From Atriophallophorus winterbourni (taxonomy: Eukaryota; Platyhelminthes; Trematoda; Plagiorchiida; Microphallidae), in the NCBI GenBank assembly GCA_013407085.1, contig JACCGJ010014140.1, forward strand, positions 23,501 through 87,500: DNA of 64,000 nt, in the 5' to 3' direction. A program made the position numbers and the translations under genes. The number at the start of each line of letters is the position of its first letter. Positions within the stretch are counted from its first letter, which is position 1. Of the stretch, positions 226 to 63,725 are shown one piece after another. Under the pieces are notes generated by a model that saw nothing but the letters and a program-made list of their open reading frames with translations, searched no databases and was not told the DNA's origin.

Positions 226-385
226 CTTTTCCTTCACCAATCGTTTAACCTTAACCCCATTATATAGGGTTCGTACAACGAACCACGATGTTCAGACACA
301 GAATAACAAAGTGATTCTTGGTCAAGCACTCAAGGCGCTTACGGATGACCAAAGTAATGTGTTGCTCACATCTCAATCCCTTACA

Positions 386-427
386 CACCACTACCGGTTT
401 CTGGCTGTTTGCCGTCGTCAGGTGGAG
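386..427 (-). ncRNA. Hammerhead ribozyme-like motif (CTGACGA...GAAACC)
   Basis: Read on the - strand: stem I strand CCAC, core CTGACGA (421-415), stem II GGC-AAACA-GCC, core GAAAC, a minimal stem III and a GTA cleavage triplet, then GTGG that pairs with CCAC. The first stem II pair is a C/A mismatch, so activity is uncertain. Hammerheads with very short stem III are known from Penelope-like elements and retrozymes. Confidence 0.6.
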
Positions 428-600
428 ACAGTAAGATCAGGTTCCATAAGCGCCTCGAGTGCTTGACCAAGAATCACTTTGTGATTCTGTGTCTGAACAT
501 CGTGGTTCGTTGTACGAACCCTATATAACAGTTGGCATACAAGTATAATCTTGTTTACCTTTAATCCCCTGTTTCAAGGCTCACTGAACCTGATCTTACT

Positions 601-645
601 GTCTCCACCTGACGACGGCAAACAGCCAGAAACCGGTAGTAGTGT
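601..645 (+). ncRNA. Hammerhead ribozyme-like motif, mirror copy
   Basis: CTGACGA at 609-615, stem II GGC-AAACA-GCC, GAAAC at 629-633 and GTA before the expected cleavage point. Stem I (CCAC with GTAG) has one mismatch compared with the mirror copy at 386-427. Confidence 0.55.
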
Positions 646-689
646 GTAAGGGATGGGGATGTGAGCAACACATTACTTAACCCCATTAG

Positions 690-2393: not shown

Positions 2394-2770
2394 CACAATG
2401 TGTGTGAGCACATGACTGGGAAGGCTAATCATGCCAGCCGTATCAAAGAGTGGCTTACAGGTTCGAACTTTGCTTATTTTTTCCTAATCGAACTGCCTCT
2501 ACTTGCTGAGTGCAACCAACACGAAACCGGTCGTGGTGTACGTGTGATGGTAATGCATGCAAATAAGATATTTGTTTCAAGTCTATGGGTTCAACCCCAT
2601 CCACATGTGTGTAAGAAGAGGTTGATCTTGTCAATTTTATCCAACAGTGGCATTGAAGCGCAACTTGTAACCATTCTTCTATTCTTTCAAAACATGCGGA
2701 TCATGATCCTACTGTCCCTATCTATTGAAGGCAAACATCACGAAACCGGTCGTGAGATCGGATTGGATCA
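2394..2770 (+). repeat. Degenerate retrozyme-like tandem pair
   Basis: Two head-to-tail copies of the hammerhead-bearing repeat also seen at 14089-14470. Remnant cores end in CACGAAACCGGTCGTG at about 2537 and 2736, a period of roughly 200-225 bp. The CTGATGA boxes have decayed (TTGCTGA; CTATTGA). Between the cores lies the shared body: atgcatgcaaat, the B-box-like gggttcaaccc, and cagtggcat with agcgcaactt. Confidence 0.65.
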
Positions 2771-5652: not shown

Positions 5653-8600
5653 GTAAGTGATTGGTGTATGTGAACTCAGAAAATTTTATGGTAGAAAAAG
5701 CATCATGCTTAACAATAACCATAGGATGACAAGGTATATGGAATATATATAAAAAATTAAAAAAATCTCACAAATAAATAGGGACACGCGCATACTGCAT
5801 GGTTCGTCATAAACTCATCGAGTTTGGAAGCGAAAACCTTAACAGATTCTGATCGTGTGATTTCGTCAGGCAAATAGATCCAAGTGAAACAAATTCTTAC
5901 CGAGAAAAAGTTACGACGTATATCCAATCGAGAATGCGGAATGCTTAAAGCCTTTGAATGTGTTCGTGTTCTAGTAAGGTCATTGAGCTTTAGTAAGTGT
6001 TTAAGAGGATGGTTTACAGAATGCAGGATTTTGAATGTCAACATAAGGTCACTGCGAATCCGCCGTTGGGTAAAATCGTGTATGTTCAGTTTTAACAATC
6101 GCTCTGTGAAAGGCAAATTTCTGTACCGGGAGACCAACTTTGTAGCACGATGATAAATCCTATCGAGTAGTTCGATATTCTTCCCCAGCCATGGTGCCCA
6201 GGCTTGGATGGAATATTCCATAACAGGACGTATATATGTGTTAATTACCCGGGGTAGGGTTTCGGGCGTAAAATCCGGAATATTCTTTTGAGAAGACTCA
6301 AGATACGGCAAGCTTTATTGTACACCATCCGGCAATGATGTCCAGGCTTATCGTTAAACGAAACCCAGATACCAAGATCTTTTTCTGCTGTGGTCCAGAC
6401 GGGATATAGTTTTACTTAAATCATCCGCACATGATAAAGTTTGTTGTGTGCAGTTTTCTAAGTGTATAATGTTGCTCACATTCCCGCATTTACAGACCAC
6501 AACGGCTTTCTGGCAGTTTGCTGTCATCAGGTGGAGCCACCGTTAAATAGGTTTCGTACATAGAACCACGGTGTTCAAACACCGAATCAACAAGTGATTC
6601 TCAGTCAAGCTCTTAGGACTCGCAGAATTAACAAATATATAGTCTTGCTCACATCACCCGCATTTACACACCACAACCGTCTTCTGGTTTTTTGCCGATA
6701 TCAGGCGGAGACAGTAATTTTAGGATCAGTGTGTTTTGAAACAGTGGAAATGTAATAAGCGAAGTAATACATAAAAAGCACTCTCAAAGTGGGCTTTTGC
6801 AAATCTGTTTAAATACTGATTCACAAAGTGATTCTTGGTCAAACGTTAAAGACGCTTGGAAGCGACCAACATATAGCGTTGGTCACATCCCCCTCACTGC
6901 ACCTGATGTCGGCAAAGAACCGGTTGTGGTGTGCAACTGTGCGAAGTATGGGCAAACTGTATATTCGTCGGTTCTAAGCGTCTTGGGCGCTCTTAACTAA
7001 AAATCACTTTGCTTGAACACAGCGGTTCTATGTAACAACCTTAATTAACAGTTTCTCAGTGTGTTTTTCATTAAAGTACAAAATTGGTCGCAATGTTACA
7101 TATTATCACATGTATTATATGTACTGGCACGTTTTATAACGCACACATTCCACTGACGATGTCACGGTAGTGGCACTTATCAGGCAGGAACAGTTCAATC
7201 ATGTCTTGAAATTGTAAAAGATTGGTCTGGCCTCAAATTTAGTTATGCTCTTTGAAAGCTTCGGGACGTTAATGCTGACATTAAGCTTTGATACACGGAG
7301 GGATTTTGATGGCTGCAAATAATTTATATTTTTCCATGCTACACAATCGCTACGCCTTTCAAAACTGGTTAGAATTCGTTTGTCGGTGCTAACTGTGGTC
7401 TTCAAATTGACCCGAAATATGCCAATCCAGTGCATTAGGTTGTTGCAATTATGCTGCGCTCCAAATTAGTAATTCATGCTTGAATGTGGCAGTCATTTTG
7501 ACAACAAAATAACGAAACTGTTACTTGTTATTTCTGCCCGAAAAGAGCGAGTATTAAAAACTTATGAGCACGGGAGAGTCGATCGAAAAAAACCGACATT
7601 ATGCTTTCTTGATAAAATGGACATACAAGCTTTTTGTGTTCTCGCGACCACAAATGTTAACCTTGTCTGAGCCTGATCGTGTGAGTTCCATTCGATGAGC
7701 GTATCCCGAAAAGTGCGAGCGCAGTGGATGTGATCAATAACGAAATTTATCAGCCAGTTACATGAAATTTACCGCCTGACCATCTTGCGCTGTTTGAGCT
7801 CTCATGTTCCCGGGCGACTGCAACCTGACGGCGAAGACAAAATTGATGGCATACCGCGCGTGCGTACTAAATGATTTACTGTATGGCTGCGAAACCGGGT
7901 CCATCCCCGCAAGATATGAAGCAGAAGCAGATAGGTTTTCATTTAGGTTGTACTAAGTATGGCTAATTTATGTTCACGGTCCAATAAAATTGATATGGCA
8001 TTATTTATTTATTGATACCAGCTAAATGTATGTGAAATTCACTCAAGTAGACACCACGACTGGTTTCTGGCTGTTGCCATCATCAGGTGGACATTAGGTT
8101 CTGTGCGACTTGAAACCATGGTAACGTGGTAAACAAAGTCATATTTGAATGTCACGGGTTCTTACAAAGAACCGCGTAGTTGAAATACTCAGATCTGTTT
8201 TCTTCGCATTTCTTGAGACATACGTGGAGCATTGTTAGTTAATGTGGTTCTTGATTGTCAAAACACGTTTCACTTATTATATTACATACCCCAGCGAATA
8301 AATGCTGGTTTATCATATAACTAGAACGAAATCTTGCTCGATAGATAAAATTGACCAAATACTAAGACTTTGTTGCTTTCGTCCACTTTGTTGAATAGTA
8401 GTCTAAAACGCAAGCATGACGAGGATGTTGGCACACGTCAAACCACTTGATTCTTGACGATACAAACGACATTCGACGCTGGTGAACATCACTGGTGTGC
8501 GTGGTGCAGCAACAGGATAAAAATACCTTTACCGAGCGTCAGGAATAACAATTACAGAATGAAATATAATGATTGCCATAGTGTTTATGTAAGACAGACT

Positions 8601-11600
8601 TATGAGGAAATTCACGCCCGATTGAAAGAACATCGGAAGCGTATCAAATGGCAGTTCTAAGAATCATCCCTTATTGGTGATTCAGCTTCGGTGGAGCAAT
8701 ATTAGATACAGGTTTCAGCCTCGATTTTGAAAAAAGTAGAATTGTTAAAGCTCAGGACTAAACCGCGTGCGGAGGGTGTCTAAATTTCTAATGTCGTATA
8801 TATTGTGTTGCACACACATTTCACTCAATTTCACCACAATATCGTTTACTATTTAAACATCGTGGTTCTTTGTAAGAACCCCACATCGCAGTGGCGTTCA
8901 AGTTTACCTTTGCTCTTATGCCTTAGTTATGTACTTTCATACATGTGGGCCACGGTGCTAATCGACCTTGACCGTGTTCAATTGTATCAGATTGAAATGA
9001 ACACACACCAAACAAAGTGAAACATGTATGCCACTGTTATATAGGGTTCTTACAAAGAACCAAGATGTTCAAATACAGAATCAAAAAGTGATTCCTGGCC
9101 AAGCGCTCGAGGCGCATGTCTACACCGGATGACGGCAAACAGCCAGATACCAGTAGTGGTGTGTAAGGGATGCGGATGCGATCACCACAGAACGCACACC
9201 GTCTTAGGCAAATTGATGACTAATCCTGGTCTTTCATACGTGACTTGACAACCCCTAGGCTTAATATGAGCTGCCTAGCTGTAAGGTCAAACAAAGGTGA
9301 AGGGTGTGAATGCTACTTCGTCCTGTCCCTTGTCCTGACCATCACCGTGAGTCTGACGAAGCTTCTGATTTGGATGCGAAACGTCACTCGAAATCTGTTC
9401 TAACCGATTCCAAACGCATATCTTTCCGTCATTGATATTTTTGGCGCTCACACCATCTGTGCTTCAAATCGATATTCATCTCATGAATGCTGACAATATC
9501 GTTAAACTCGGTAAGAAGGAAGAATCACGCGATATTAGGTAATTTGATCCGTTTGAGACTAGGTAACTGTGAGACGTTTCACGTCGCAAGTTGATTTTGC
9601 AATTTCACTAAAAGTTAGCAAGTTAACTGTTTTTGAGCGCACATTTTCAGTTCATATATATTGCTTACTGTGATCCTAATAGGCCTTCTAAATGATCTTT
9701 CTATGTATTCGTGACATGTTGTGGGGAACCGTATAAATAATTGAGAACGTATCCTCGGGTGTAACTCGGGGATCAGTACAACCAGCTGAGTAAGGATGGA
9801 ACAATAGTGGGACAAATTTTGTCCCACCAACTTGAGCTGACTTCAGGAAATAGCTCTGCAAGTTCCCGCGTACAACCAATGTATTATTATTACTATTATC
9901 ATTATCATTATTATTATTGCACTTCGATTATACCTGTCGGAGACATCATTCATTCATCTGCTGTCTGGTTCCAGATGCGATTTATTCACTCTCTACTACA
10001 AATGGGTTGAAGGATTTATGGTTAAAATGTTAATACATTACAACATCTCATGATTACGGTATGAATAAAACATGAAAAATATAATAGTATAAAAAGAATA
10101 GAGAACGTCAAATGCAAGGCTCACAAATGATTCTCTTTTGCATGTGTAAGTCCAATTTCGCTTTAAACACCACCAGGCAAGAAGAGTCCACCACATGTTG
10201 GGGTAGCGAATTCCAAAAAAATCCGAAAAAATGGAGCTAACAATCAATACGGGAACTTGGAACGTAAAGGGATAAGGTGTTTCCGCGTGTCACTTTTATA
10301 TCACATACATCAAGCAAGTGTTTTAGTGGATGTCCTTCGGTAGACGCAATTCCATAGGTCAGAATAATATCGCTTCGTATCCTCCTTTGGGTAAAGCCAC
10401 ATATAGCCAGACGTCGCGATCTTTCGGTGTACGGAACATTGCGAAGACCCATCACTAAATTTGTTGCTCTGTGATAGATTGTATCAAAGAGAGCAATATC
10501 TCTTCGCAGTCACGGAGCCCAGACCTCTACCGCATACTCCATCGTAGGGCGATGGTAGACGTTCATTATACTTGGTAACGTTACCAGCGAGAATCTTCCA
10601 AATATTCTTCAAAAGATACCTAACAATCAGTTGGCCTGTCGATATATATTCTGACAGTGCACCGTGCTCTTCAGGTTCCCGCTAATCCACACCAAGATCT
10701 TTATCCAACGAGATCCATGCCAGGTTTTCAGTTCCCAATCGATATGTCCAAGGAACATTTTTGCCAAGGTGGAGCATCTTACATTCCCGTATGTTGAATA
10801 TCATATCATTCACGGTCACCCAATTTGGCACGTTGTTCAAATCAATTTGCAGTTTCTCACAATCATCTGCAGAAGTGATTTGCATCCATATTTTCATATC
10901 ATCCGCGAACAGGATCATTTCGAATTATACGAGGGGGGGGTAAATCGTTTATGCATATTAGAAAGAGGGGCGGGCCGAGCATGGATCATTGTGGGACTCC
11001 GCTGCTGGTTTTGAACATTTGGGATAGCACTCCGTTTACTTTAACTCCGGCGTGGCCATATTACAGGTAGTCGCACAAGCATGAGAGGAGGGGTTCACAT
11101 ATTCTTAAGCGTATCAGTTTTGGAGGAATCAAATTGTGATTGTCTCTGTCAAACGCTTTAGGAATGTCTAGGTGAAAGACGTGAATGCAATAACTTTTAT
11201 CCTACTCCTTCGTCCATTCGTCTAACGCTATGAGAAGATTAATTAGACAAGAGCAATGTGATCGAAATCCATGCTGCGCTGGCGAAAACAAATTACGCAA
11301 TTCAAAGTGTGCAACCATTCTTTTCGAGACAATAAGTTCAATCACCTTACCAATAACAGGTAATAGTGTGACGGGACAATAATTTGCAGCGTCAGATCGG
11401 CAGCCTACTTTGAAAACAGGTGTAATCATGCCGGACTTCCAATATATCGGTACCACTCCCTTAAGCAGCGAATAGTGAAACAGGCTGGAAAGCGGTTCAC
11501 AAAGTCGACGATGACAGAACCTGAGCACATCCAGTGTGATGCCACCAGTCTATCTTCAGATTCAGAAAATTTTCAAGTTCGTTCCATTGCGAGTTAGGGC

Positions 11601-14600
11601 TTATGTGGTCAATCTGCCGATCCTGAATCTGCACGAGCGATTTACGTAGGGCCAATTTATCTACCCGGCGAATTACCCCACTCAGAGCAAGAGATTGATG
11701 AGTAGTGCAAACATAATCGAACACAAACAGTGAATGGTCACTAAGACCCAGCGGAGTCTGGAATCCGATCAGATTGTTCTTGTGATGTTAACACCAAGTC
11801 ACATCCTCTCCTCCTTGTGCATTCGTGAACATGGTTGTATAACGGGACTGAATCTAGTACTTCTCTAAATCGGTATTCTAGCGTTTGTGGGGAGTGATCG
11901 TCCCTGAGATAAAGGGTGGACAGATTAAAATCACCCATAATAAGTGTCGTTGCTTGCTGTGTGCGAGTCAAGCGCTGAAGCACTTGGATCAACCTTTCGT
12001 TGTACGATTCCGTAGATGAAGGGGACCGGTAGACCCCACCAATAATGTAAACATGACCAGACATCAGCGTTAAAGAACACCAAATTGTATCCTCAAGGGT
12101 GAATTCTGTGCTTTCTATTGGACGGAACTAAAGGCGATTATGATAAAAAAGAGCAACACTGCCACCAACTCTCTCTCCATCTTTCCTTATCAAAATCATA
12201 TTTGGGAAGAATACCATGTTTCTGTAATAATGTTAGGTGAGTAGTGTGAGCATATCTCAGCTAACTTCGATAATAAGTTCTAAAGGCTTTGCGCATTTGT
12301 ATATAAACATCTTATACAGTTTTTAGTGTTCAACTCATGAAAGGTTATCAATAGGCCGACTCGGTTAAAGTCGGAATGCTATCGCATGATATTCAGCTTG
12401 AACCGCATCACTAGGCGTTGGTGGGTCGGTACTATCCGTTTGCTTGCTTCCGACTATTATCCTGGGCAAGCTCAACTTGACGTTGTGTGGTTGGTTTCTT
12501 CTATTAGCTTTCCATTCACGTTTAATACTATCGGTCATTTCGGTTGTCAAGACGGTTAGATTTAAAGGGCTTGGACCTTGCCCTTTATAGTTGGCAGATC
12601 GCGGTATACTGAATGCATCCACAAGTATAGCCTTTTTTAATACCGATCGTTTCGGGTAGGTATTTCTACTGTTTTTGATCGCGCTCAGACTTTTCTTGAG
12701 AAGGTACGTCAGCAGCATCTTCCGGAACACCTAGAAATACAATACTTTTTGGATTATTTTCTTCTCGAGATTAATTCGACGACTTTCGCTCCCATCATGG
12801 ATGATCTGCATGGATACGACTTGTATACTTTGGAGCACCTCTAAGAAGGTAAGCATTTAAGAATACGTTTTCCACGTCCTCCGCAGATTGCAGCGTTATT
12901 CGTAAAAGCAGAGGACCATCTTTGTGAGGAGAATTTAGGTGGCGGTTTAGCCGAACTATCGATGAGGGAGCAACTGCGACCAGTCTCATCTGATTGCAGA
13001 ATTTATACCACGCAACTAAGTCATGTTTTGCTTAGCTTCGAACAGCGTTTCCCGTGACTCGGTCACGTTGGTACATATAACACTAAGGTTTATACCAGCG
13101 GATTTTGGTTTACAATTTGAGTCGGTCTTTTTTAGAACTGGTTTTGCAGAGTCCCTCCTCGTCTCCGTTAAGTTGAGGAGTCACTGATCCAGACGAACAC
13201 TTACCCGTTTTAGGCACCATTTGCGCGGTTATCTGGGCAAATTTTGGCCTGTTCGAGTATGATGGATTTTCTACCGGCTCTTTAGCAGTGACCTCTAAGT
13301 CAAGCAACGATGGTGCCCCTATGACGTTTTTTAACAGTTCATTCAGTTTTTGTATACTGGATTCCAGTCCATTTAGACGCATCTCAATATCATACTCAGA
13401 GGTTTTCGCCTTCGAGCATGACGCTGTTGGTTTGGCCTTTCAAACCTAGCAAACGTAACAAACACGGACGATTATCTCAATTAATAATCGATACCAAATC
13501 CGAGGTTAGCGATTTGTCGCTTTTAGCATGAACTTTCGACAAAAAATAGTAACACGCGACAGACTTCGCCTTAGGACTTACCGACTTTTGGCAAACCGTA
13601 CACATGCAGCTTGGTTCGCTTTGTATCCTTTTCGGGGTCATTCGGTCAGGGTTGTGTGCAGTACTGTTCAGTGGTGTGTGCACAGGCAGTGGTTCTGTCG
13701 AACGATCGATGATGTGAGCGTGACGAAAAGCGTTGTTCGCTAATAAGAGCAAAATCAGAATTGAATACGGCGATACGCTTCGGTATTTGATCGCACGATG
13801 TTGAATATATAACCAGTCGATGGCGAAGAATAAGATCTTTCCGATGACATTAATAACTTTGAGGGACTTGAAGAGTAGGGACAGTAAGATCAGGATCCGC
13901 ATGCGCTTAAAACAGTGGAAGAATGGTAAACAAGTTGTGATTGTATGCCACTGTTGTATAACCAACCAACATGTTCGATCATTTGAGCCCACACTCATGT
14001 AAACTGTGTTTGAACCTATGACCATGAATAAAAAGCTCATTTGCAAACATCTTCATCACACACACACACACCACGACCGGTTTCGTGGCATACAAGCGCA
14101 ACTTGTTTACCATTCTCTCATTGTTTCAAGAACATGCGGATCTGATCTTAATGTCCCTTCCTGATGAGTGCAAACAGCATGAAACCGGTCGTTGTGTGTG
14201 TGTGATGGAAATGCATGCAAATGATCTTTTTTGTTCATGGTCGTGGGTTCAAACACAGTCTACATGTGTGTGAGCTCATGTGTTTGAAAAGGTTGGTCGC
14301 ATCAACCTAATCTAACAGTGGCATACAAGCGCAAATTGCTTTCGATTCTTCCACTGTTTCAAGCGCATGCGGATTTTGATCCTACTGTCCCTACCTGATG
14401 AGTGGAAACAGCACGAAACCAGTCATTAAGTGTGTGATGGAAATGCGTGCAAATGAACTTTTTTATACACAACATGCTTATTCATGTTCACTAATTCCCG
14501 TTTATGCACGGAGTTTGATGTAATCCGCAGCGGAAATGCAATAATACAGTGCCATTGCTATCCAGGGCAATATTCTTTTTAAAAATCCGTCAATTCAAGG

Positions 14601-17600
14601 TTACGGCTGGTAATCTTGCTAGTAAAAGGACGAGAGAATCAAAAGGTGTGATTTTTCTTTAGGTTTGTAATCCAATATCACATATCATATATCCACAAAT
14701 GTTGTGAGTCATTATTAAAACCAACCAACAAGAATTAGGTATGCACTTTCTTATAGTAAATAAGAAAACTATCCCTTGTGTTTGTCATACAAATTTCCAA
14801 ATTCTATTCTTCATATTCGATTATCATTTCTTTAGCTCCGCCATTTAGGCGTCCGTCAGTAACGGTCCCAGGGGTTAACACGTAGAGAATTCCACCGAAA
14901 TGCCATTAAATCTAACCACCCAGTTGAACATGAATATTTATTGTTCATCGACATAGTAGATTTAAAATCGTTGATTTTATTTTGTACGTAGAACTCTTCG
15001 AAAACCTACACGGTTTCCCTTGATGACAAACTAAATCAAAAAGGGCGAAACATCGAGCATAACAGATGCATTAGTTATTTCACCGAAAAGTTAACTGAAT
15101 CCAGTTTTTGCTATATGCAACTCGTTCACAGAATTATTTTGTGATAATGTAAATTAGACATTTAGATAAACCGCTCTAATTTTATTATCATGTTAGGCAG
15201 TTCGGTTATATTGCAAAGCCGCGGTTGAAAGGGTTCTATCATATTCTTCGCGTAAGATAACATTTTGACGATGGAACGTAATTCTCTGAAACGATTTTTC
15301 AAGCTCATGCTGATCCTGATCCCAATGTCCCTACCTGATGAGTGCAAACAGCACAAAAAAAGGTCGTGCGATGTGTGTGTCTGATAGAGATGTATGCGAA
15401 TGAGCTTTTTTAGAAATGATAAATAATTGTAAATAGCAATTGGCATTGCTGCTACGCTATTTGGCGTCTCCATCATAATTTCGGATTTTGTGATGCAGAA
15501 AATAAGATTTACAAGAAGGAAGTTACACGCACAGTAAACGGTATAACTCAACACAAACATATTTAAGAAATCAAACACCAATTACCAGACAGATTTTCTT
15601 AGTAAGAGTTTAGGTGTCTACATTGCTAAATTTTTGTCAGCATACTGATTGCCAAGAACTATCGATTTGGTGAAGTATCTACAGTCACATCTTCTTTCAC
15701 ATAGTCTGGATCAGTAAGTTAGGCATTCACCCTCAAATATCTACTCAGTTACTGTTCTATCCATTCAAACTAAATAGAAACTTGTCAAAACACTTTCCCG
15801 GTTGAAAAAATAAATATACAACCATCGGCATTTTGTTCAGTCAAACTAGAAATCAATAAACTATCCCAAACACATATGCCAAAACAAAACCACATCGAAA
15901 ACTCTTCTCCAGAACTGTTTGCAAATCTCATCGATCGGTAACAATGTATGCAGGGAACGGACAGATTCTCAACGCGTTCCCGATCGTTCCCCATTGGAGC
16001 ATTTCAGCTCACATACACACAATCTCAATGGTTGGGTAACATACGCCTGTTTCCAATCTGAGTTACCGAGCGTATTTCCCGCTATACAGCTCAGCTGTAG
16101 CAAGTGCTAGACCTGCTTTTTGGTGAGTTGAAGATTCGTTTGTGAAACGTTAATTGTATGCAATCGTAGTTCGATAGGATCCTTAATTGAAGTTAAAATC
16201 TGTTTTAGGCGTCGCGGTCACGGCATAATTAATTTTACATTATTCAATTGAATATGCTAAAAACACCTCCCTCAGTTGCCAAATCTGGTTTTCGTCTTAA
16301 TGAAAATACAAATGATCTTACGGATAAGGTTCTTTGTTATAAAACAGGGTTTTACCCCATTTATATGTTATTTGGCACATGTGATTGAACAGGTTGGCCG
16401 CGCCAAGCCTATTCAACAGTGGCTTATAACCTTATAACGTGATATTAAGAATTTTCTGCTATGAATTATGATTTAACGGATATGTTTTAGATGTGGTCTT
16501 CCGTTGTGTTGTGAGGTAAAATTACTGGCACCTTTTTATTTGTTGAAATCCGATACTACTTGATTTGCAAGTGTCAATTTTTGTTGCACGCTTGTAACGC
16601 TGATAGCCTATTTATTCGTTTTTTCGCAAATGAGCCATTCGTAAAGGAGTATTTAATCTTGCGTCTTTGTTGAAACATGTAAGGCTCACTGCATTCTTTT
16701 AGCAAATATGTCATTTGACATGCTGGTAAGATCCGCTTAAAAGGTAGGAAAAATACTGGCCATGTTCAAAACGCAGTGGCAAATCGCTAATCGAAATTCG
16801 AAACCAAATCGACAGTGGTGGAACTGGGATATCTCTTGGAGAAAGGCAAATGCGCTCTGCTTGACGCAAGAATCAGTGAATTGAGCAGTTGTCTGAGTTC
16901 AAATGAACATCAGGAACATCTAAAAGAGAAGATAAACGTGGCCATTCGCCGAAGCGAAGGTCATGCACAATTAAAACCGAATAAATTTCGTTGACATAAA
17001 CGTTAGCAGACAAAGTGCTCATGCTGTTTTGCGATTCTGGTAGCAAATAACACAACCGGGTATTCAGAAAAAATATGTCTAGTGCAATTTTGTAGAGATG
17101 AACTGTACTAGCGAAAGGTGCCACATAAGACGGAAAAATGGGTGAAGACTGTTCGAATACTGTGACTACGGTAGGCGCGTCAACTTACATCGAATCAACA
17201 AGCTGTGGGAACGTGAGATAATGTTCACTGTAGGAAATCCGTGTAGAATTCTTTGTCATGTGAGCCATTAACGCTGGACCAATTGGCATAAGATTAGATA
17301 TTGGACGTGGTCAAAGCTGGATCGATTGGTTTGATGTTTGAGTCAAGAACGTAATAAACCTACTGGCCGGATACGGCCTCTTATATCGTCATCTTGTCTT
17401 CCCAGCCTCATCAACAACTATTGATTACAAAGTGATGTAATATTGTTTACCGGTAACGAATCGAACTGACCCACACGGAACGCCAAACTGAATATTCAAA
17501 CCGCAAACTCAATAAAGGATCTTGGTTGAAGTCAAAGAAATCGGTTCTGGGGTAGCAAAACCTAAAAGAAAATTGGTCGCATTTCTAAATTAGACATTAG

Positions 17601-20600
17601 AACACGGTAGTGTTCTGTGGTATACAAAAAATCTCGCTAAAACGTAGCACTGCTCAGAAGGATCTTCGGTAGTTTCTCAAGGCAGGAACTCCCAGGGATA
17701 ATTAACACTTATATTCCGCCACCAATAATGTACGCTGTTCAAGCATGGTCCTCGTGGTTACACAAGGACATGGCCTTGCTGCAACACGTGTTTCATCAGC
17801 AAGAAGCACGTGATAGTGAATGTCGTGGCTACACGTTAATTATTCCACACTTTCGATCAAATTGTGGAAGGTTTTTCCTAGCTGTCCGAGTTTGTTTTAT
17901 ATGGAAATCTCTGCTCCCACATATCATTTGCGCATCAAGCCTGAACATGTTCAAGGCTGAAAACTATATGCAAAGAAATTTGAGTTCAATCGGGTAGAGT
18001 AGTTTTTGGGTCACTCCGGGAAACCTATCGATACAGATGCTGTACTATGATGCACTTCCGCTCATCGAAGAGAGGACATCAGTTCCATAGCTTGTTCCAT
18101 TTTCCATAAAATGGAACACCTATGCAGCGAAAAAGAGACCGAAAACAGGCACACCGTGAAGCGAGCCAAAGGCTCATAGACCACGGTTATCCAAAACGTT
18201 TTGTAAAACGCAAATTGATGAAGATAAAATACCCGTCGGAAAAATCGCAGAAAAATGGCGAGATACAGTTTGTATACCGTATGTAAAATGCACACCTGAA
18301 GCGATATGTAGAATCTTGAACCAGGCGGCCATACGCGTAACTTATAAGAAAGGGAATACAATCCGTTCGGTTCTGAAGCACCTCAAGGATAAGACTCCTT
18401 TATCTAGTGTTACGAACAGCATTTACAGAATCAGCTGTAAGGACTGTTCGGGTGTTTACATAGGGCAGACGTCCAGGGAAATTCACACTAGAATCGAAAA
18501 AACCGAAAGTGTATTCGGAATCAGCCCCAGGATACGAGGGAATATCAATCCCTTATTCGTGATTCCGCCTTGGCGGAGCACGTTTTAGATACGGGCCACA
18601 GCGTCGATCTAGACAATGTGGCAATATTCAGACGCGGTATTAAACCGTATAACGAACGACTTCATGCGGAGGCGGTCGAAATTGCCAAGGCAGGTCGACT
18701 GGCGGTAAATAAGGTGGATGGGGCAGAAATCTCCAAAATCTGGCGCTCGGCACTGATGCGAAAGTAAATCGTTTTTATTCACCTTATACCTACTAGTTGT
18801 TTAGATTTTTGTTTTTCTTCAAAATAACCTCAGCCCCGTTAGTTATGTACTTTACGTATGTGGGCAGCTGTGTCAACTGACCTTGACCGTGTTCACTTGT
18901 ATCAGATTGACGTGGATACACACTAGTAGGAAAATCGGCCACTGATCTTAGTCATTCCCACGAGACGTGACACGCTGTGGGCGTACTATAGGCTGTTTAG
19001 CGGTTAGTTCAAATCATTAGTGGGGGTTGACGACTACTTAATCATGTTCCCTGTCCTGACTATCACCCTTGGTCTGATGAAGCTTCTGTGTCAGAAGTGA
19101 AACGTTACCAAAAAACTACTCTAACCGATTGCACTCAAATTTCTTTGCATTATGAATACACGATCGGTCCCAAACATATTCCAATCGACTATTGACAACT
19201 ATATGTTGACCAAATCCAACCTCACACCTCGATACAGAAGCTGACTTTCCGTATTGACGAAACATCTTTGTTGTTTTTATGCATCCCCTATATTATTAAG
19301 GTATGGTTACTGTAAAGTATTTGCTTATTTGGACCAACAAAACTTTGAATTACTTTGAATTTGTATTACATTTTGCAGTAGTGCATGCAACTTTAAATTT
19401 ATCTGGCCATACAATACTATTTTTGTGCGACTAATGTTATTAAGTTCGCGAAGAAAAGAAGTACAGACCAAGTGCTCTACAATTAGCTGGAAGGTACAAC
19501 TCGCATACATTTTTAGCGACCAAACTAAATATGATAGCAAGTGGAAACACATAGCATGAATGACGATATTTGGAGCCTCAATCACACAAATGATCACAGT
19601 GAGGGGTCTGGATAGAGCAGGATTTACCCCGTGTGTAATGTGTATGAATCATAGTACAATCCACGAAGATTTTCAGCTACTCCAACAAAATTGTAAACCA
19701 AAATCAATGTTACTTATTATTACTCAAGCTCGATATCGATGTTGTCCAAGTCAATGAAAGATCACGAGTTTCTTGTCACATAAGTTCGGTCGAAAGATTT
19801 TTTTTATTGCTATTGCCCTGACTGCTCTCAAAATGTTTCAACCTAGTTTTCAGGACACAGATTTGGGAACCGCATAAGCGATAGAGAACGCATACTCTAG
19901 TTTCACTCAGTGCTAAATGTCGATCAGATAGGCTAGGATCAGACCGAAATTAGTAGAAGATTCAGTCGTTTGAAATTTCCAGATCGTTGATGCTGCTTCA
20001 ACGGAATCCGGTGTTAGATGTTTGGAATAATAGTTTGGACATTGGCAGTGCTACGATCGGTTTGGAATTTAATTTAATTCAATTTAATGGTCTAAAAAGC
20101 ACATAGCTTTACGAAAACCACATAATAATATGCGAATTACAAATAACATAGGTAGTAAAACTGGATTTGTTTGCCTACTGATCAGTTCAGGAATCACGTA
20201 AAAATACATAGAGCAGAAATTGTTTTCAACCGGTTGGATGGGGTAAATATGTATAGTTTACGTCGATGTATGGGTTCAAAGCTTTATGATGCAGAATATA
20301 TTGTTTCAATGTTTGGATTGGTCGATATGAAGTTGTCCAAGTTCGATTTGAATATATCCAAGTTGGGTCAATGTACAACGTTACTGGGTAGGGAGTTCCA
20401 AGTAAAACGTGGTGAAAATTCAGCGGTCACCATATTTAAACTTGATTTTTATGGATATCAAAATAAAAATTCTGCATATATCGTAAAATGAATGTGTCGC
20501 CTTGAATCCATCGGATCACAAATTTTCCTTGACAGAAACTCGCTGAAATCATTTGGGATGATTGCTATTGATTGATTGTTCATTTAATGTGTAAATTCGA

Positions 20601-23600
20601 GATTTTACTTTAAGATAAACGGTAGATTTTACAATATAGTGAGTAATGCTAATCCAGTGCTTACCAAGATACCCGCGAGTAAAAATAATGTTGGGTATTA
20701 CTGACTAGAATATAAGTAGCAAGTCGAACGAGTATTATTCTTTGGTTTTTTATATTCAAAGTGATAACTTGAAAAATTTCTTACTGTTCGCGTCGGTTTT
20801 TGTCACTTCTCGGTAGATCCCAATGTATTTATGTATTCAACACAAGATTTAAAAAACACAATAATGTAGTGGAAAATGTTTGCGATCGGTCGTGGAATAA
20901 TATTCACGATAAAGAAATGTTTAATGAATTGGTTAGAACAGTTTATTGGCATCGTTTCGCTTCTGAAACAGAAGATTCGTCAGACCAAGGGTGTCAGTAC
21001 GAATAGAAATGACCAATCCTGAGCTAGTTAATAACTACACAATCCATGGTTGGCATTGACATTGTTAAGATAGACAGGTTAGATTAAGGTAACTTTAACC
21101 CTTTGTCTACTGTCGGTAGCTCTAATTACTACTTCAAACAAGCAGTCGATTACTCAGTAGCTCCCGTCGGTACCCTCAGTCACCATCGGAGTGCACTTTT
21201 CAGGCAGCGTCTGGCATCTGATCCATGAAAATTAATAATGTGTTTTATTTATGGCATAATTAAGCAGAATTACACAAAAATATCATATAATACGTAAGCC
21301 AATTCCCGTAGACAAAAGGTTAAGTACCATCACCCCTATATGCTGTTGTTGTTGTTGGCCTTTTTTGGCCGATAGTGTCCATGGATATACATCACAAGGC
21401 GCATGATGATTTTATGTTCCACAGCTTTTAGAGTGACTAAAATGCTATATAATCTCTTAATTGATTTGGTCTTGGCAGGTGGGAGTACGAAACCGGACGC
21501 CAGATTGTGGAGATATAAGCCCCATCGACCTCGTTGGCTGCGTTCTTACCAGCCCTTGTTATCCTCCCCGTCTGACCGGGAAGTTGTTTGATATATGGTT
21601 TCGTCCCGCCTTATCACTTCCAAGTTATCAAGATCAACGCTGTGATTGTAATATCTGCAGTTCAATCTGATTAACAAAATAAATATTGTGCTAGGTGTGC
21701 TGGTTGTAAATCTTGTAGACAGATGCAGAGGATTTAAATAGTTCTTTTCAACTTAATTTTAAAGAAACAGAGAGAAAGCATCTTTGGTAGCCATAGATGT
21801 TGTTGGCCTCCTTCGGTCGATGTCGACCATGGATGTACATCACAATCGCATGAATTTTCATAATCTACAGCTTTTTGAATGACTAAACAGTCCGATTCGG
21901 GAGGAACAATCTCTCCCACAGCGCTGGCAACAATAGTCAGAACTCGGTTGTATTGAATCAGTTACCATAGATAATATGGGTTAAAATGGACCAGAACATA
22001 CCTGTCAATTCCTGGTCACGCAATTTCATAATGCTTAAAGCATAAGAATAAGAAAAAAGCATTGGCTTTATCCGTCTACGCGCAAACTCAGTAGCAAAAT
22101 TCATTCAAACACACAAAAACACTTTTCCAAAAATACGTTACGCAAACACTGTTATGGTGAGGATTCAATGTCGAAGTTCAGACTGTCAGTCGCCGCCTAA
22201 GATTGAAAATTGGGCGTCGAAAATTGGCCTCCATTGATACGAAAAATGATGCTTTTGGCTCACAAATACCGTTGACATTTAACATAAAACTTTGAAAAAC
22301 GTGTGGAGAAATTAATTTTATGCTCGGCCAATTTGAAAGACCCGCAAATTCTTGTTGAAGCAAGAATAACTTTTGATTGACCAACCAAATAGCCGGACAA
22401 TTTAAGGAAGGAAACAATTCCTGAATTTTCCGGTTCTTGAATATGGGGCAAGATATTGACTTAACGTAGACGAAAACTAGTTGCAAGGCAAAATTACCTT
22501 TTGCAGCGGGTGTGCAGTGTTTGACGAAATGAATCTAATAAATTTGTCACATTCACGGATGTGCTGATCGAAAATCATACCTCGAATGCCTCTTAATCAA
22601 TAGGAAATCCTTTTCAAGCAGACCGGGAATAATTATAGGGGATGCATAGATTAAGTGGGCAAAAATGCAGGAATAAATGTCTGACCACATCCGGTGGGAT
22701 TGAGAGGCAATGGCATTCTATTCGGTGCACGTTTGTTTCTTATGGAATTCCCTACCGTCATAGGTTGAACAATCATCTGGTGAAATGATTTTCAGGAACA
22801 AACTGGATGTATTCATGCGTACTAATTCCACCCTATATCCCGTTTATTTAGCATGACCTTTATCCAAATAAATATTTTTGCACCATTCTTATACGAATAT
22901 CACATGGTGTTGTACAGCTACAATCTTTTTAAACATAAATTCTTAAATCTTGAATATCCGGTTCAATTTTAAGAACTGAGCAGTCATGCATTAAGTCCAG
23001 TTGAGGCCGTGTGATAGCGTAACCCAATATACTTGAAACAAGTACATCTGCTCAACTCTGAGCGATTGAAAAAACCCGAGGATTTCCTTGAATCCGGTTT
23101 CAGCATCGCTGACTGATCAACTTGGAGAAGACTACCTCGGTCACCAAACTATAAACGTGCCGGACCAAAACCTGTTTAGAGGCATTGGGTATATCGTTGC
23201 TGTATGGTTTGTACTCACTATACAGGCTCGATCGTTTTTCGGATTGTAGTTTGTTAATACAGAAATTTAGTTTTCGGAGCAGTGCAAACCAGATATTTGT
23301 CCAACTGAATGATTAACGTGGCAGGTAAATGCATGTATGTACGCGCATGCTTGTGTATCAATTTTTTGAACCAAACTCACTTACCATGCATGAAATTTGT
23401 CATTCCATATTTTAACTGAGGCCTGGATTTATTGATCTCTCGAATGTATGTGACATGTAAATCTGAATACCGAAGTTCACACACTTTGATAATGATAAAA
23501 TAATTCTAAAGCGAACTGAAAAATCATTAATTATTAAAATGAAGCCAGTTATCATGGTGCCACAGTTTGGGACATTTTGCGACAGGTCTTCAGTTCCATA

Positions 23601-26600
23601 GCTTGTTCCATTTTTCATAAAATAGAACACCTATGCAGCGAAAAAGAGACCGAAAACAGGCACACCGTGAAGCGAGCCAAAGGCTCATAGACCACGGTTA
23701 TCCAAAACGTTTTGTAAAACGCAAATTGATGAAGATAAAATACCCGTCGGAAAAATCGCAGAAAAATGGCGAGATACTGTTTGCATACCGTATGTAAAAT
23801 GCACACCTGAAGCGATACGTAGAATCTTGAACCAGGCGGCCATACGTGTAACTTATAAGAAAGGGAAAACTATCCGTTCGGTTCTGATGCACCTCAAGGA
23901 TAAGACTCCTTTATCTAGTGTTACGAACAGCATTTACAGAATCAGCTGTAAGGACTCTTCGGGTGTTTACATAGGGCAGACGTCCAGGGAAATTCACACT
24001 AGAATCGAAAAAAACCGAAAGTGTATTCGGAAAAAGCCCCAGGATGCGAGGGAATATCAATCCCTTATTCGTGATTCCGCCTTGGCGGAGCACATTTTAG
24101 ATACGGGCCACAGCGTCGATCTAGACAATGTGGAAATATTGAGACATGGTATTAAACCATATACCGAACGTCTACATGCGGAGACGGTCGAAATTACTAA
24201 AGCAGGTCGACTGGTGGTCAATAAGGTGAATGGGGCATAAATCTCCACAATCTTGCGCTCGGCACTGATGCGAAAGTAAATAGTTGTTATTCACCTTATA
24301 CCTACTAGTTAATTAGATTTTTGTTTTCTTCAAAAATTGCTTAACCTTAGCCTTGTTAGTGATGTGCTTTTACGTATGTGGGCAGCTGTGTCAACTGACC
24401 TCACCGTGTTGACTTGTATCAGATTGTCGTGGATACACACTAGTAGGATAATCGGCCACTGATCTTAGTCATTCCCACGAGACGTGACACGCTGTAGGCG
24501 TACTATAGGCTTTTTAGCGGTTAGTAAAATCATTGGTGGGGGGTTGACTACTATTTAATCATGTTCCCTGTCTTGACTATCAACCTTGGGATGACCAAGC
24601 TTCTGTGTCAGAAGTGAAACGTTACCCAAAAACTGCTCTATACGATTGCACTCAAATTTCTTTGTATTATGAATACACGATCGGTCCCAAACATATTCCA
24701 ATCGATTGCTGTCCCAAATACCCGTTTGAGTAGATTTAGGAGACGTTGCGTTTTTGAAGGAAGTGTTAGTTTGAAACGAGGTTCTTAAACTGGAGCATAT
24801 CCAGACACCCATATTGATTTCACCTGTTCTTGGCCAGGTGGGGGGATCGAGCAGTACCGAAATTCCCGTTCAATGAATTATTTGTCTCAAAGGTAGTAAT
24901 TATTAATAATGTTTCATATTTTTCACAGATGTGGCTTTCGCATTCACATTTTTCATTTCACATTTAGTGGCGCAGCGGACACTGTTGAATTCCTTGAGGA
25001 ATTATGGGAGGTTTTGTGGAATTGGAAAGGAATCTTTCTTTATGACAGAATGTATCGATGAGATCTGTCTTTTTGAATGGATCGACGAATGAATGCGCTC
25101 GAAATGTTGTTCACGTTACAAATGTGATTTAGTGGACCACAATAAGCCTCGTGAGAACGACGAAGATGAAACATGATTACGTTGATACCATGCAATCCAT
25201 AAAACATCGAACATTTAACAAGTTGCGCTTGTATGCCACTGTTGGGTAAGTTTGGTACGACCAACCTGTTCAATCACATGAGCCCACACTCATGCAGACT
25301 GGGTTTGACCATGAGTATAAAAGCTTATTTGCATGCATCTCCATCACACACACACACCGGATGCATGCAAATGAGCTTTTATATTCATAGTCATGGGTTC
25401 AAACCCAGTCTACATGAGTGTAGGCTCATGTGATTGAACAGGTTGGTCGTACCAACCTTACCCAACAGTGGCATACAAGTTTACCATTCCTCCACTGTTT
25501 CAAGCGCATGCGGATCCTGATCCTACTGTCCCTACCTGATGAGTGCAAACAGCGCGAAATCGGTCGTCGAATTGAGACGATCCAATGGAATCGATGAATG
25601 ATCTTTATTCCAAATTAACAAGATGGTAATTGAATATAATTATCATCTCAGAAAGTAAATTGTCGTATGAATGCAATTTCATAAAAAAACGTACTTTGCC
25701 CCGTCATTCTGTATAATAAACTAACCAATGAATTAGGCCTATATTTAAGCCTTTTATCCTCAAATGTTTGGCCCTAAAACCAAACTAATTTCATAATTTT
25801 TTCTGAACTTTCACACTGGTCATATGAAATTATATTTACGCTGAATATCGAGACTATTTTTATATTGATCTTACCATCTGTAATTCCATTTTAAATTACT
25901 TCAGGCAATTTTTACTCCGTTGCAGGTCCGCTCCCCACCGACCCAGATCCAAACTTCCCATTCAGAAAGCACTTGGAAAAAAGTGTGGTCCCAAATCCCC
26001 GAAAGGCATTACAACGTATTATACGCGGGGAAACTAAAGCGGAAAGGCGGCAGCGTAAAGAAAAAGAAGAAGTCGCCAAATTACTACAAGCTGCTCCTAA
26101 CGCGCCAGAGCACGTGAGCGGTGAAGTACACTCGAAAGACTGGGAAGACTTTCAAGCGTTAACCCAGCAGATTGATCAGAAAGTTCAGGAAACAACTTTC
26201 AAGGTCATCGGTGGAGCAACCGATCCGTTTCAAGACGTACCTACAGCGAACGACAGTGTAGCACCAACTTGGGCTGATTTTGATAGTGGGTACAAACAAA
26301 GAGAAATCCCACTTGAATCTACGAACAACAACGTAGAGTCAGAAAGTTGGGCAAATTTCGAGGCTGCTTTTAAGACAGACGAACTTCTACACCAGAATTC
26401 TCAAGAACACGCAGAAAACGGTACGTACGATCCAGCAGAAGGATCAGACGATCCTTGGCAGAACATCACTGGAGAATTAGACAACGGTAACGATTTCTTC
26501 AAGTTTGAAGCTTTTCAAAAGGAGGAATCATTCTCATCTGATGTCTTGGGACTTGATACGAAAGTAGAAATGGACGATTCTCTAATTAGACGGACGCACG

Positions 26601-29600
26601 CAGAAATGATGAAAGACATCGATGACATTTTGGGAATAGAGATGGAAAACGTGATTGGAACTAGTGAAGAAACGACCAATTTTGTGAATGCTAACATATC
26701 GGGAGAAGATGATAAACCAGTGGATGCTATTGCGCATGATCAATCTAGCATAGAGCAAACACCGAGGCAGACGTCTTCTGAACTATCAGAAGAATCTGAT
26801 CAAGAAGAGAAATTATATGTTCAGAAACAACCAGAAGAAACGACTCCAGGGACAACGAGTCCAGAAGAAGAAACCGATGGTAATGATCCAGGAGAATCCA
26901 AATCTTCGGAAGGGATGCTACAGCCAGAACAGGAACCTTTAGGACCTAGTGATAACGAAGATGAAGCGGATAATATACTCTGGGGAGGTTTTGGCGAGGT
27001 TCAAGCGACCCCGCAAGTTGCTAGTCCGTTTGAAGAAGTGGACTTTTGTCCAAGTAACGGAGCTGGAGAGCCAGAATCCAAAGAATTCGATCCAAGTTTC
27101 GTCAGACCTAGAAGTAAACCGATTCGGCAGACTACATTGTCTGGGAACAACCCTTTTCGTGCGGTAGATACCGACAATGGGTTGGATGAGCTTTATCGAG
27201 CAGCAACTTCAATCGAATTGACGAATGTCAATTTGAAGCAGCGGACGCAGCGAGACAGTTTTGCGGATAGCGACAGTACTGAAGAAGATGGAAAGCTAGT
27301 GACAAAAGAAAATAGCGACGGGAATGACGAAAACATGATACTAGGAGGTTTTGATCCGTTGCAAACAATCTATCCAGAAAGTGACAATGAATCAATCACT
27401 ATCAAAACAGACCATGCCATTTCAACACATGAAGTGGTAAATGCCTCTGTCGACGAGACGAAGCAGGAATTAGGAAATGATGAATTACCGATAACTGAAG
27501 CAGCAACAGAATTATCTCAAAATGATCTGGATATTAGTGGATCATTCCAGGAAACAGAAAGCGAAAGGAAAGATGAAATAACCAAGGATACTACCACTCC
27601 AGGCGCACAACAGACATTACATCCAGGATGGATTGACTTCAATGAAGATCTATTCCTCGATGACCAACATCGGCCATTAGCATCACCAGATTTGATTTCT
27701 GAAGTTGATTGGACCGCACCGATTGCTAAACCGGAACCTCAGGAACCCGAACCCCCAAGACCAGACACACCTGACCCAGAATTGGATAAACCATTTTACC
27801 CTCCGGTCGAGGATAACGTATTCTATCGCTTATGGCTACGATTTCCAGAGAAGAAGACACGTGTTAAGCAGGTTAGTAAATACACTACTGATCGATATTG
27901 GAAAGAAATCGCTCTGTCTTTTTCTGAGGAGCACGGTCGAAAGGTTATCAACTTGCATGAGGTTGATGAAAAGTCTGATCACGTGCAAAGTGAACCATAT
28001 CGATCAATAAGGATTGAGCCGTATATGCAATTGTCGCGAGAAAAGTTGCAACAATACGACAAATACGGAAAGCTTCATGTGTTTAAATTGAATCATGTAT
28101 CCTACCGTGAAATGGTTGGTATGAGACCGGAGAAGTTTTCATTGAAACATTTGCAAAAGCTGGTGACGCATAAGCCCAAGCAAAATGTGGCAGTCGATCA
28201 TATCCCGGTATATTCAGAGATATTGAAATTCGGTTCTCTCGATCAACAAAAGATTCGAACATTGATGCCGGTATTTGAAGACGCCCTCATGAAAATTCCA
28301 GCGCACAAGGATACCACTTTGAGCTACAGCCGTGAGGAAGTATGCTGTTACGTGGTAGATGAATATCATGCCAGCGTATCTTCCACAAGTAACATAATCC
28401 AACAAAAAGCCCGGACTCGCATATTGTGCACTGCTTTTGTCAACGGAGGGCCACACATTGTTCTCGGATTGAACGACAAATGGCGATACGGCCGTGAGGT
28501 GGTCCGTCGGTCCGATATCTTACCAGTCATGCACGACGAGTGGATCAGCATTCGAAATCCAGAATTTCATTCGTGCGTTGAAATGGATGCTTACGAGAAA
28601 GATCACATGCTAAAGTTCTATCCGCTTGATGGATGTCGATTTGAACTACTCCGATTTCGGGTAAGCTTGCGTGAAAACCAGGAGCTGCCAATGTTCGTCA
28701 AGATCATTTATCGAATTGACGGTAGACGCGTCTCAATGCGTTGTGAGCTCCTGGTCCCCGGATTTTTTAGCGCAAGCCACAGGAAAGGAGCGGTTCCGTG
28801 TGAAAACGTGGAGATTCATATTCCTGTACCGGAAGAGTGGATTTACCACTTCAGGATTGAGAAACATCACAAATACGGCTCAGTGCATTCTACACTGCGC
28901 AAGCCTGGAAGAATCAAAGGTCTTGAACGTATCACACAAATGGCTCAGAGCTTACTCCCAACTAGTATACTGGAAGCAAGCACCGGATTGGCCAAGTATG
29001 AGCATTTGTATAAGGCTATCGTTTGGCGTATTCCAAGAATCCCGGAAAAGGGTGAAGGTGAGTAATTTGAGTTTAAAACCACGAGGCATTGGTTGAAAAT
29101 TGGAATGTTGAATATACAACCAAAAGCATAAAAACGCATGTCCTTAATTCCTCATTGCCAATATTAAAATCAGTTCCATTAGGATAAGAATCATTCATTC
29201 AACAGATTGTTCGATTTTATCATCGATTGGCTGAGAGAGAGGTTAGGAGCGAAGTTGGGTAAGACAAATAGCTGTCAAATCACACAAAATCCTGGCTAAC
29301 GCGATTAATGAGTTGTTTTTTGTTTCGAAAGAGATTAGGAAGGCTAACTAGCAGTTGCGTTCCATTGAATCTGGTAAAAATATCCGCATCATAGCCAGCG
29401 AAAGTGAATGGTTTGTCGAAACTCATGTGCTTAAACACAGCCACATGGTTATTTTCATGAATTTAAGCAGATCAGAAATATCAACCAGATCCAACAGTCC
29501 CGCAAACCTTGAATTCAACTCTCAAAGATGTTTGTAGTCCACGTGATGTCCTATCAGGATAAACCTCATCCCCAAACTGTAGATTCTGTTAGCGGAAATC

Positions 29601-52379: not shown

Positions 52380-53395
52380 TCCACCCACATTATATAGCAT
52401 GGGCATAAACATTTTAACAAAAAAACTAAAAGAATGGGAAGGGCGGAACTTAAAAAGCTACAAAGCTACAAAAGCGTACGTACAGAAAACTGGGATGAGG
52501 TTTCGCAACCTCATGTTTCTGGAATCAATAAAGCGACAGCAGCTCTATAGCTTCCTTGCAGCTTTCACTGGCACGCAGCATAACAAACTTTTCCTTGTCA
52601 CACCATCTGACATGACACAAGATTAAGCTGACAAACAAAACACAATGCGTATTGCAAGAAAGAATTTGAACTTGGTTTTGATACCGATCTTGAAGGGTAA
52701 CTAGCCACTGTGATCTAAAATCGCGGAAACGCAAATCAGAAAGCTTAGTCGTTATTGTATTTAGTTGTTTATATTATGTGGCGGTTTGGCCACCACGAGT
52801 TCTACGCCAATCGCAATGGGGCATCGCAAAATGAATCCGTTTGTGCAGACAGTAATCCGTCACCTGCAGAACTTGTCCCAACCATCGTAGCATGTGCAGG
52901 TTGATGCGCTACTCTATATGAATAAATAATACCAAATAAAATATTCATTTGATTGCTTCTCCGTCATTCACACCCCACAAACTGTTTCGTGCAGTAAGAT
53001 CAGGATCCGCATGCGCTTGTAATACCAAATGCGTTATTGAGGATAGCAATGCCGCATATGCAATGGTAACAGCTTGCTCCTATAATGTTGTGGAGACAAT
53101 GATCGTCAAATAGGTGAAAACGATGGACATGTATTTTACGTAAGGTCCAAGTTTCGAGCCTATAGAGTAATACATACCGAACTAACGCGTTGTAGACTCT
53201 ACCAACTGTAATCTCGAGTAACGGTGACAGCCCTTTCTGTCACAGAATTTTGATACAACTACCGAGGTATGTAAAACGATCTACGGTTTCAAGCGCCTGA
53301 TTGTCAGCTAAAAATGTACCGTGTGACAAATCGTATTTTATCAGCATAACACTGCGTGCGAAACGCAGTTCGAATGCTGGCGCTATAATTGAGTT
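52380..53395 (-). pseudogene. RTE-like LINE C-terminus and 3' UTR, decayed
   Basis: 52380-52640 is an eroded 3' UTR (aaagaatgggaagggcggaactt, aaactgggatgagg, tttcactggcacgcagc). 52640-53330 is a broken RT C-terminus (minus strand: [39 protein letters not shown]) equivalent to 41915-42631. A piece of retrozyme (52964-53020) is inserted near 52970. Confidence 0.75.
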
Positions 53396-63290: not shown

Positions 63291-63312
63291 AGGCTAAGCT
63301 TGTTGCAAAACA

Positions 63313-63725
63313 TTGAGGTCAACATGGGAATGTTCCGGCTCGGTTTGAAAACCCGGTGGACGGTAAGGCTAAACGTGTTGCCAACCCTTGAGGTCAACAT
63401 GGGAATGTTCCGGCTCGGTTTGAAAACCCGGTGGACGGTAAGGCTAAACGTGTTGCCAACCCTTGAGGTCAACATGGGAATGTTCCGGCTCGGTTTGAAA
63501 ACCCGGTGGACGGTAAGGCTAAACGTGTTGCCAAACCTTGAGGTCAACATGGGAATGTTCCGGCTCGGTTTGAAAACCCGGTGGACGGTAAGGCTAAACG
63601 TGTTGCCAAACCTTGAGGGCAACATGGGAGGGGTGCGAAGCAAACACACTGGCCGACAGAAAGTTGTTATTCTGAATGTAACCTGATCTAAACTGACCGT
63701 CAACTTGATACGTTGAGGTCAACAT
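63313..63725. repeat. 75-bp minisatellite, four full units plus diverged ends
   Basis: Units start at 63313, 63388, 63463 and 63538 (ttgaggtcaacatgggaatg ...), with a diverged fifth at 63613 and a scrap at 63713. 75 is a multiple of three, and the array is open in frames on both strands (25-residue repeats). Unit 1 differs a little; units 2-4 are almost identical. Confidence 0.9.

Follow-up and report, generated by a model that had tools for sequence, protein, structure and literature searches.

Retrozymes are known in animals, and the available text of PMC7229834, which counts platyhelminths among their metazoan hosts, describes the non-LTR kind as non-coding units of 170 to 400 nt that carry a type I hammerhead ribozyme, have a GC content below 50%, are arranged head to tail, and are flanked by duplications of more than 4 bp where these are present. 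The words "inverted" and "twin" have zero occurrences in the main text of that paper. The same text describes hammerhead repeats of newt and axolotl in which helix III is very short and its tetraloop palindromic, and which are weak as monomers and better as dimers. Among flukes, the schistosome Sm-alpha and W elements are hammerhead-bearing repeats according to the available descriptions (PMC8490949, PMC6155905), and tertiary contacts are described there as speeding up the Sm-alpha hammerhead.

A different group of elements has a similar architecture. In the available part of PMC3846280, rotifer Penelope insertions have a head-to-head inverted repeat beside direct repeats, with target-site duplications of 8 to 10 bp or none, and in one element the repeat reaches 12 codons into the open reading frame (ORF), or 22 with the tail. 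The purified protein of an anole Penelope-like element (PLE) cleaves and extends both strands, with internal starts at two adjacent sites (PMC11167929). As far as their available text goes, a review from 2020 calls PLEs and Terminons "likely candidates" for mobilising animal retrozymes (PMC7761336) and one from 2024 names LINEs or PLEs as the mobilisers (PMC11722881). The head-to-head insertion layout is described for Penelope elements and was not found for retrozymes in the literature examined, although it may have been published elsewhere, and our search found no literature linking a hammerhead ribozyme with twin priming or a retrozyme with Paragonimus. Here we describe a locus, A1, in the digenean fluke Atriophallophorus winterbourni, together with its relatives in the window, by which we mean the whole 64-kb stretch of DNA that was analysed.

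Results

A dispersed family with two subfamilies

A1 is one copy of a dispersed family and not an isolated cluster. Its unit was found at many places in the window by BLAST and nhmmer, and the reversed window gave no match at the same threshold. Two subfamilies were distinguished, A with a consensus of 236 nt and B with one of 242 nt, which share 71 to 73% identity over 124 to 169 nt; the GC contents of the units are 0.466 and 0.459. Eleven segments were mapped onto the circular unit by a Viterbi procedure: five clean composites (A1, A2, A5, B1, and B2), one complex locus (B3), and five copies in a single orientation (A3, A4, A6, A7, and B4) (Table 1). In all five clean composites the antisense arm comes first and the sense arm second, and none has the reverse order. 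Weak nhmmer fragments at 1180-1260, 2397-2474, 7135-7225, 8851-8913, 29411-29503, 35748-35803, 47638-47737, 58103-58230, and 62930-63019 were kept outside these counts. No exact copy of the 26-base consensus core occurred in viral contigs or in bacterial and archaeal genomes. Candidate Pol III boxes noticed by eye, TGGCATACAAG in the two units and GGTTCAAACCC in unit A, were dropped.

The window also holds a fluke stonin-like gene of at least two exons with an adaptor medium subunit domain (25895-30476), whose part at 25895-29062 is closest to flukes (Paragonimus, 83% identity; Opisthorchis, 80%; Dicrocoelium, 79%; Echinostoma, 77%; Heterobilharzia, 76%). Other features are an LTR-retrotransposon-like fragment with RNase H and integrase domains (56163-57671), an ORF resembling a MULE transposase with a weak SWIM zinc finger match after it (59954-61725), and a tandem array of 4.5 copies of a 75-bp unit with 97% matches (63291-63629).

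Table 1. Family copies, hammerheads, target-site duplications, and the truncated PLE, in window coordinates
Feature	Positions	Strand	Remarks
B1 duplication	left copy 250-262, second 676-688	.	CTTAACCCCATTA; 13/13 bp, null P 0.0005
B1 (subfamily B)	260-678	+	antisense arm 260-444, sense arm 445-678
A3	2482-2754	+	sense orientation only, covering 1.2 turns; 3' end at unit 110
B3	6465-7054	.	complex, nested/rearranged; antisense pieces, then sense pieces
B4	8048-8176	-	copy on the minus strand; 3' end near unit 117, or 121 in the nhmmer mapping
Hammerhead, the only one in the window passing the strict scan	8054-8090	-	helix I CCAC/GUGG, helix II UGGC/GCCA, all pairs kept
B2 duplication	8999-9009/9190-9200		GAACACACACC/GAACGCACACC; 10/11 bp, 1 mismatch, P 0.0055
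B2	9010-9189	+	antisense arm 9010-9117, sense arm 9118-9189; inside another PLE tail
A1, antisense arm	13875-14087	-	unit 77 (outer end) down to 95 (inner end) round the circle (Viterbi segmentation; inverted repeats I1-I8)
A1, sense arm	14088-14469	+	spans unit 4 to 156 in 1.6 turns (unit length 236 nt; Viterbi; direct repeats)
A1, hammerhead 1	14157-14194	+	helix I with two broken pairs; helix II GUGC/GCAU; CCGG palindrome at helix III
A1, hammerhead 2	14391-14428	+	helix I broken; one helix II pair broken
A4	15297-15412	+	sense only; 3' end at unit 152
A4 duplication, marginal			GAAACGAT/GAAATGAT; 7/8 bp, null P 0.05
A6	16374-16429	+	short sense fragment (56 nt), unit 192 to 11, no hammerhead
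PLE1	17958-19205	+	truncated; GIY-YIG-like ORF; inverted tail piece ~17971-18014; sense copy to ~19192
A2	25217-25567	+	antisense arm 25217-25358, sense arm 25361-25567
A5	40714-40918	+	antisense arm 40714 to ~40816, sense arm 40817-40918
A7 duplication	52927-52939/53020-53032		TAATACCAAATAA/TAATACCAAATGC; 11/13 bp, 2 mismatches, P 0.01
A7	52940-53022	-	minus-strand copy without hammerhead core

Structure of the A1 locus

The preliminary description had placed two hammerhead cores one unit apart at A1, and this was confirmed, with cores at 14161 and 14395, both on the plus strand and 234 bp from each other. The sense units, which it called a head-to-tail dimer, are indeed direct repeats with a period of 232 to 234 bp but comprise one full unit and about two-thirds of a second, not a full dimer. 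It was right that the inverted copy begins on the GAAAC side and ends before CTGATGA. Its attribution of these limits to self-cleavage did not hold, because they (unit positions 77 and 95) flank the helix II core and not the cleavage site, which lies after unit position 107 (after GGTC), and because other copies end elsewhere. The antisense arm is the whole unit minus approximately 17 nt of the helix II core, is 80 to 94% complementary to the sense copies in the ungapped pieces I1 to I8, and meets the sense arm at a 3-nt overlap, GTG (14085-14087). The inverted copy resembles one of the two arms in a head-to-head type of insertion that recurs among the segments, and A1 is the only composite that also has more than one full direct unit. 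Nearly the same core is missing from the A1 antisense arm and from A7 (unit positions 78 to 94 and 70 to 93, respectively), as if the reverse transcriptase had skipped helix II.

At both A1 and A3, the unit continues directly into the next unit with no ORF between them, and both sense arms are longer than one unit. Therefore, the template was itself a repeat of approximately 236 nt. Both A1 arms also cross the cleavage site, and the template was therefore either a circle or an uncleaved multimer; this read-through fits a ligated circle, and an uncleaved multimer fits equally. The unit, of 236 to 242 nt, runs into itself and contains no reverse transcriptase or GIY-YIG ORF.

Insertion sites

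Target-site duplications were sought at nine retrozyme loci and at PLE1, with A6 and B3 outside the test. Duplications were found at B1, B2, and A7, and a marginal one was found at A4 (Table 1); at the other five of the nine retrozyme loci (A1, A2, A3, A5, and B4), no convincing duplication was detected (P 0.13 to 0.92). Where present, the duplications all exceed 4 bp, as in metazoan non-LTR retrozymes. Both B1 and B2 interrupt Penelope-like tails that have uninterrupted relatives in the window, the homologue of the B1 site lying at 18731-18910, and the joined flanks of both insertions align across these empty sites, with some gaps in the B1 left flank.

Positions of the ends

Target-primed reverse transcription leaves a preferred start and variable 5' ends. 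The 3' ends of the sense arms fell within a 47-nt arc just past the cleavage site in 7 of 7 cases (P 0.0004), and in 9 of 9 when the two single minus-strand copies were included (P 0.00005). No clustering was measured for the sense-arm 5' ends (P 0.50) or for the outer ends of the composites' antisense arms (P 0.69), and a smallest-arc test on all 14 ends pooled gave P 0.051. This first count was made without A6, which ends at unit 11, and B3, whose outer ends are at 2 and 139; with both restored, 10 of 12 ends lay in a 48-nt arc that was picked after the data had been seen (P 0.00015), and with the antisense arms added the count was 11 of 17 (P 0.003). For A7 and B4, each placed differently by two mappings (143 and 148 for A7; 117 and 121 for B4), an intermediate value was used as the end, and the hammerhead region is the best conserved, making ends near it easier to detect in decayed copies. 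The ends lie near unit positions 109 to 121 and 139 to 156, two groups of few copies that were both drawn after the data had been seen. With the A of the ATG in CUGAUGA as the starting point of the count, they are at approximately +29 to +41 and +59 to +76, close to the values for rotifer Penelope elements in the available text of PMC3846280.

Comparison of the two arms

The two arms of B1 are 96.8% identical over 93 nt (best local match) and those of A2 are 89.9% identical over 119 nt. At both loci each arm matches its partner better than it matches copies elsewhere, which is what a single template would produce. No such excess is seen at A1, whose arms are 80.5% identical over 221 aligned columns against 81.6% with other loci, or at A5 (75.4% against 77.6 to 79.6%), which may be explained by age, and the B2 arms have no overlap. 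These identities support one template for both arms at B1 and A2 only.

The gap between the inner ends, measured on the unit, is 20 nt at A2, approximately 30 nt at A5, 101 nt at B1, 89 nt at B2, and 91 nt at A1. A tight hairpin fold-back was rejected as the origin of the arms, since inner ends 89 to 101 nt apart, as in three of the five composites, are not what it predicts. A fold-back of a single cDNA with a large loop could still account for the arms.

State of the hammerheads

The pattern CTGATGA-N4-34-GAAAC has four matches in the 64 kb compared to 0.47 expected, and four or more were obtained in 0 of 100 shuffles; besides the two at A1, the matches lie at 8063-8086 (minus strand) and 19074-19103. 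Within the units, the core is in type I order, with helices I and II of 4 bp each and a palindromic CCGG at helix III, i.e., a minimal type I hammerhead. The palindrome suggests that cleavage would take place as dimers, by comparison with the amphibian motifs as described in the available text of PMC7229834. A covariance-model scan with the type I hammerhead, named as a check in the preliminary description and run here on the 64-kb window, gave 18.3 bits at the first A1 core and at best 19.2 bits (25530-25576) against a threshold of 34, and the Rfam scan of the window had no match at gathering level. A weak Rfam match to Hammerhead_HH9 (41161-41234; 25.1 bits, threshold 52) has only a degenerate core, CGGATGA ... 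TTAAC.

A strict scan returned one complete hammerhead in the window (Table 1) and none in 200 Markov controls; it permits no bulges and so also misses the hammerhead of the window's own PLE. When 14 hammerhead copies were aligned, 76.8% of the 112 pair cells were standard, compared to 71.5% for shuffles (5 of 500 as high) and 18 to 51% for slid versions. Pair 13-23 of helix II is G-C in five sequences, U-A in four, and U-G in one, but covariation is weak overall: 49 of 500 shuffles reached its score, and 391 of 500 had at least as many two-sided pair changes (2). An unusually stable circular fold was unsupported (z -0.9 to -1.5). As read from the alignment, neither A1 core is fully paired, and both are decayed relics.

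Penelope-like elements in the window

PLE1 has a duplication of 12/13 bp with one mismatch (P 0.001) and a layout of the same kind as that of the retrozyme composites, with an unassigned stretch (18015-18069) between its inverted piece and its sense copy. The GIY-YIG-like ORFs at 18160-18585 and 23671-24237, for which the Pfam match is weak (19.3 bits; cutoff, 22.6), belong to another element, with a tail unrelated to the retrozyme units: 193 and 72 of 200 shuffles scored as high as the real comparisons. Derivation of the retrozyme unit from this tail was rejected, there being no similarity above shuffles, and no PLE with a tail related to the units was found in the 64-kb window. Six PLE pieces have 3' ends at approximately +70 to +74 (two pieces) and +107 to +118 (four pieces), counted from one base earlier than the retrozyme ends. 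An enzyme of the PLE type is compatible with the retrozyme ends, and PLE1 belongs to the kind of element presumed to act as helper. These 3' end positions differ, however, so that any PLE supplying the enzyme probably belongs to a family not seen in this window. The window PLE family has its own minimal hammerhead without helix III nucleotides (19068-19118, 9348-9398, and 20931-20995, the last on the minus strand), and inspection by eye shows copies that differ from each other on both sides of helix I (UUGGU/ACCAA and GAGU/ACUC).

Discussion

The feature at A1 is real. It represents a member of a non-LTR retrozyme family of flukes that inserted here and has decayed. The term "retrozyme-like" in the preliminary description is well supported, on the grounds of a dispersed family, hammerhead cores, some duplications and empty sites, and copies of more than one unit that read through the cleavage site, but not for the reason given there, which was the limits of the inverted copy. 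The family resembles metazoan non-LTR retrozymes, as the available text of PMC7229834 describes them, in its unit length, its type I core, its GC content, its head-to-tail units, and its duplications where present, and differs in its minimal hammerhead and in copies that are short, old, and often inverted head to head. The newt and axolotl repeats, similar by description, differ in host and in their longer units (330 and 350 bp in axolotl).

We consider it probable that A1 arose when a non-LTR retrozyme of a non-autonomous family was inserted into this digenean fluke genome by PLE-type reverse transcription. Tandem non-coding units of approximately 236 nt would be transcribed and the RNA would be trimmed by the minimal type I hammerhead, probably acting as a dimer; the trimmed RNA would stay or become continuous, as a circle or a multimer. 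An enzyme of the PLE type, combining a reverse transcriptase with a GIY-YIG endonuclease, would make a staggered break of approximately 11 to 13 bp. One DNA 3' end would then prime at preferred sites that lie 29 to 76 nt beyond the first base of the ATG in CUGAUGA (subfamily B has ACG there), and reverse transcription may circle the unit more than once. The other DNA 3' end would also be extended, from scattered starts and probably on the same small continuous hammerhead RNA. Joining of the two cDNAs would give head-to-head arms between target-site duplications. As a wider and tentative proposal, it is possible that Penelope-type enzymes insert animal retrozymes by using a single small hammerhead circle as template for extending the two ends of one staggered break, so that each insertion can leave two opposed cDNAs. 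The head-to-head layout of Penelope elements would then reflect both-strand priming and not self-priming on an antisense template.

The composites share with PLEs and their terminal repeats (pLTRs), in PMC11167929 and the available part of PMC3846280, a head-to-head repeat beside direct copies, short duplications, and a hammerhead beside the start codon, and they may share the two alternative 3' ends, which in PLEs are spaced by a tail of 30 to 40 bp. It could accordingly be supposed that the units are solo pLTRs, with no small RNA of their own, and that the Penelope-like family to which they belong has its ORF-bearing copies at other places in the genome. The layout, the hammerhead type, and the 3' end positions are like those of Penelope pLTRs, which, in that part of PMC3846280, occur as direct copies with an adjacent inverted one or as solo copies. 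We nonetheless regard this origin as unlikely: the layout published there has an ORF or gene between the direct pLTRs, whereas the A1 and A3 units abut directly, and the tail of the window PLE is unrelated to the units. The retrozyme unit also differs from PLEs in lacking an ORF, in its duplications of 11 to 13 bp, and in the CCGG at helix III, absent by eye from the window PLE hammerhead.

Rather improbable is a history in which the copies are satellite repeats that have decayed and been rearranged by inversion and nested insertion, with the hammerhead as a relic that plays no part in mobility. A single hammerhead passing the strict scan, the complexity of B3, the weak covariation, and five of nine loci without a convincing duplication are all compatible with such a history, but it does not account for dispersed short copies, some with duplications and empty sites, or for the one orientation common to all five clean composites. 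A DNA transposon of the foldback or MITE-like kind, bounded by long terminal inverted repeats and suggested by the long inverted repeats of B1 between its 13-bp duplication, is very improbable, given that the outer ends of the five composites vary, the arm lengths are unequal, 5 of 11 segments are in a single orientation, and two sense arms exceed one unit.

Retrozymes are known, in platyhelminths as elsewhere, and the aspect that we did not find described is a retrozyme insertion with the head-to-head layout of Penelope elements, seen here in one 64-kb window. Structural evidence for a link between PLEs and retrozymes would come from retrozyme insertions whose layout, duplication, and 3' ends are Penelope-like, and the same signature can be searched for in any genome that has both. 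The wide spacing of the inner ends in three of the five composites, unlike that of a tight hairpin fold-back, also bears on how PLEs themselves integrate.
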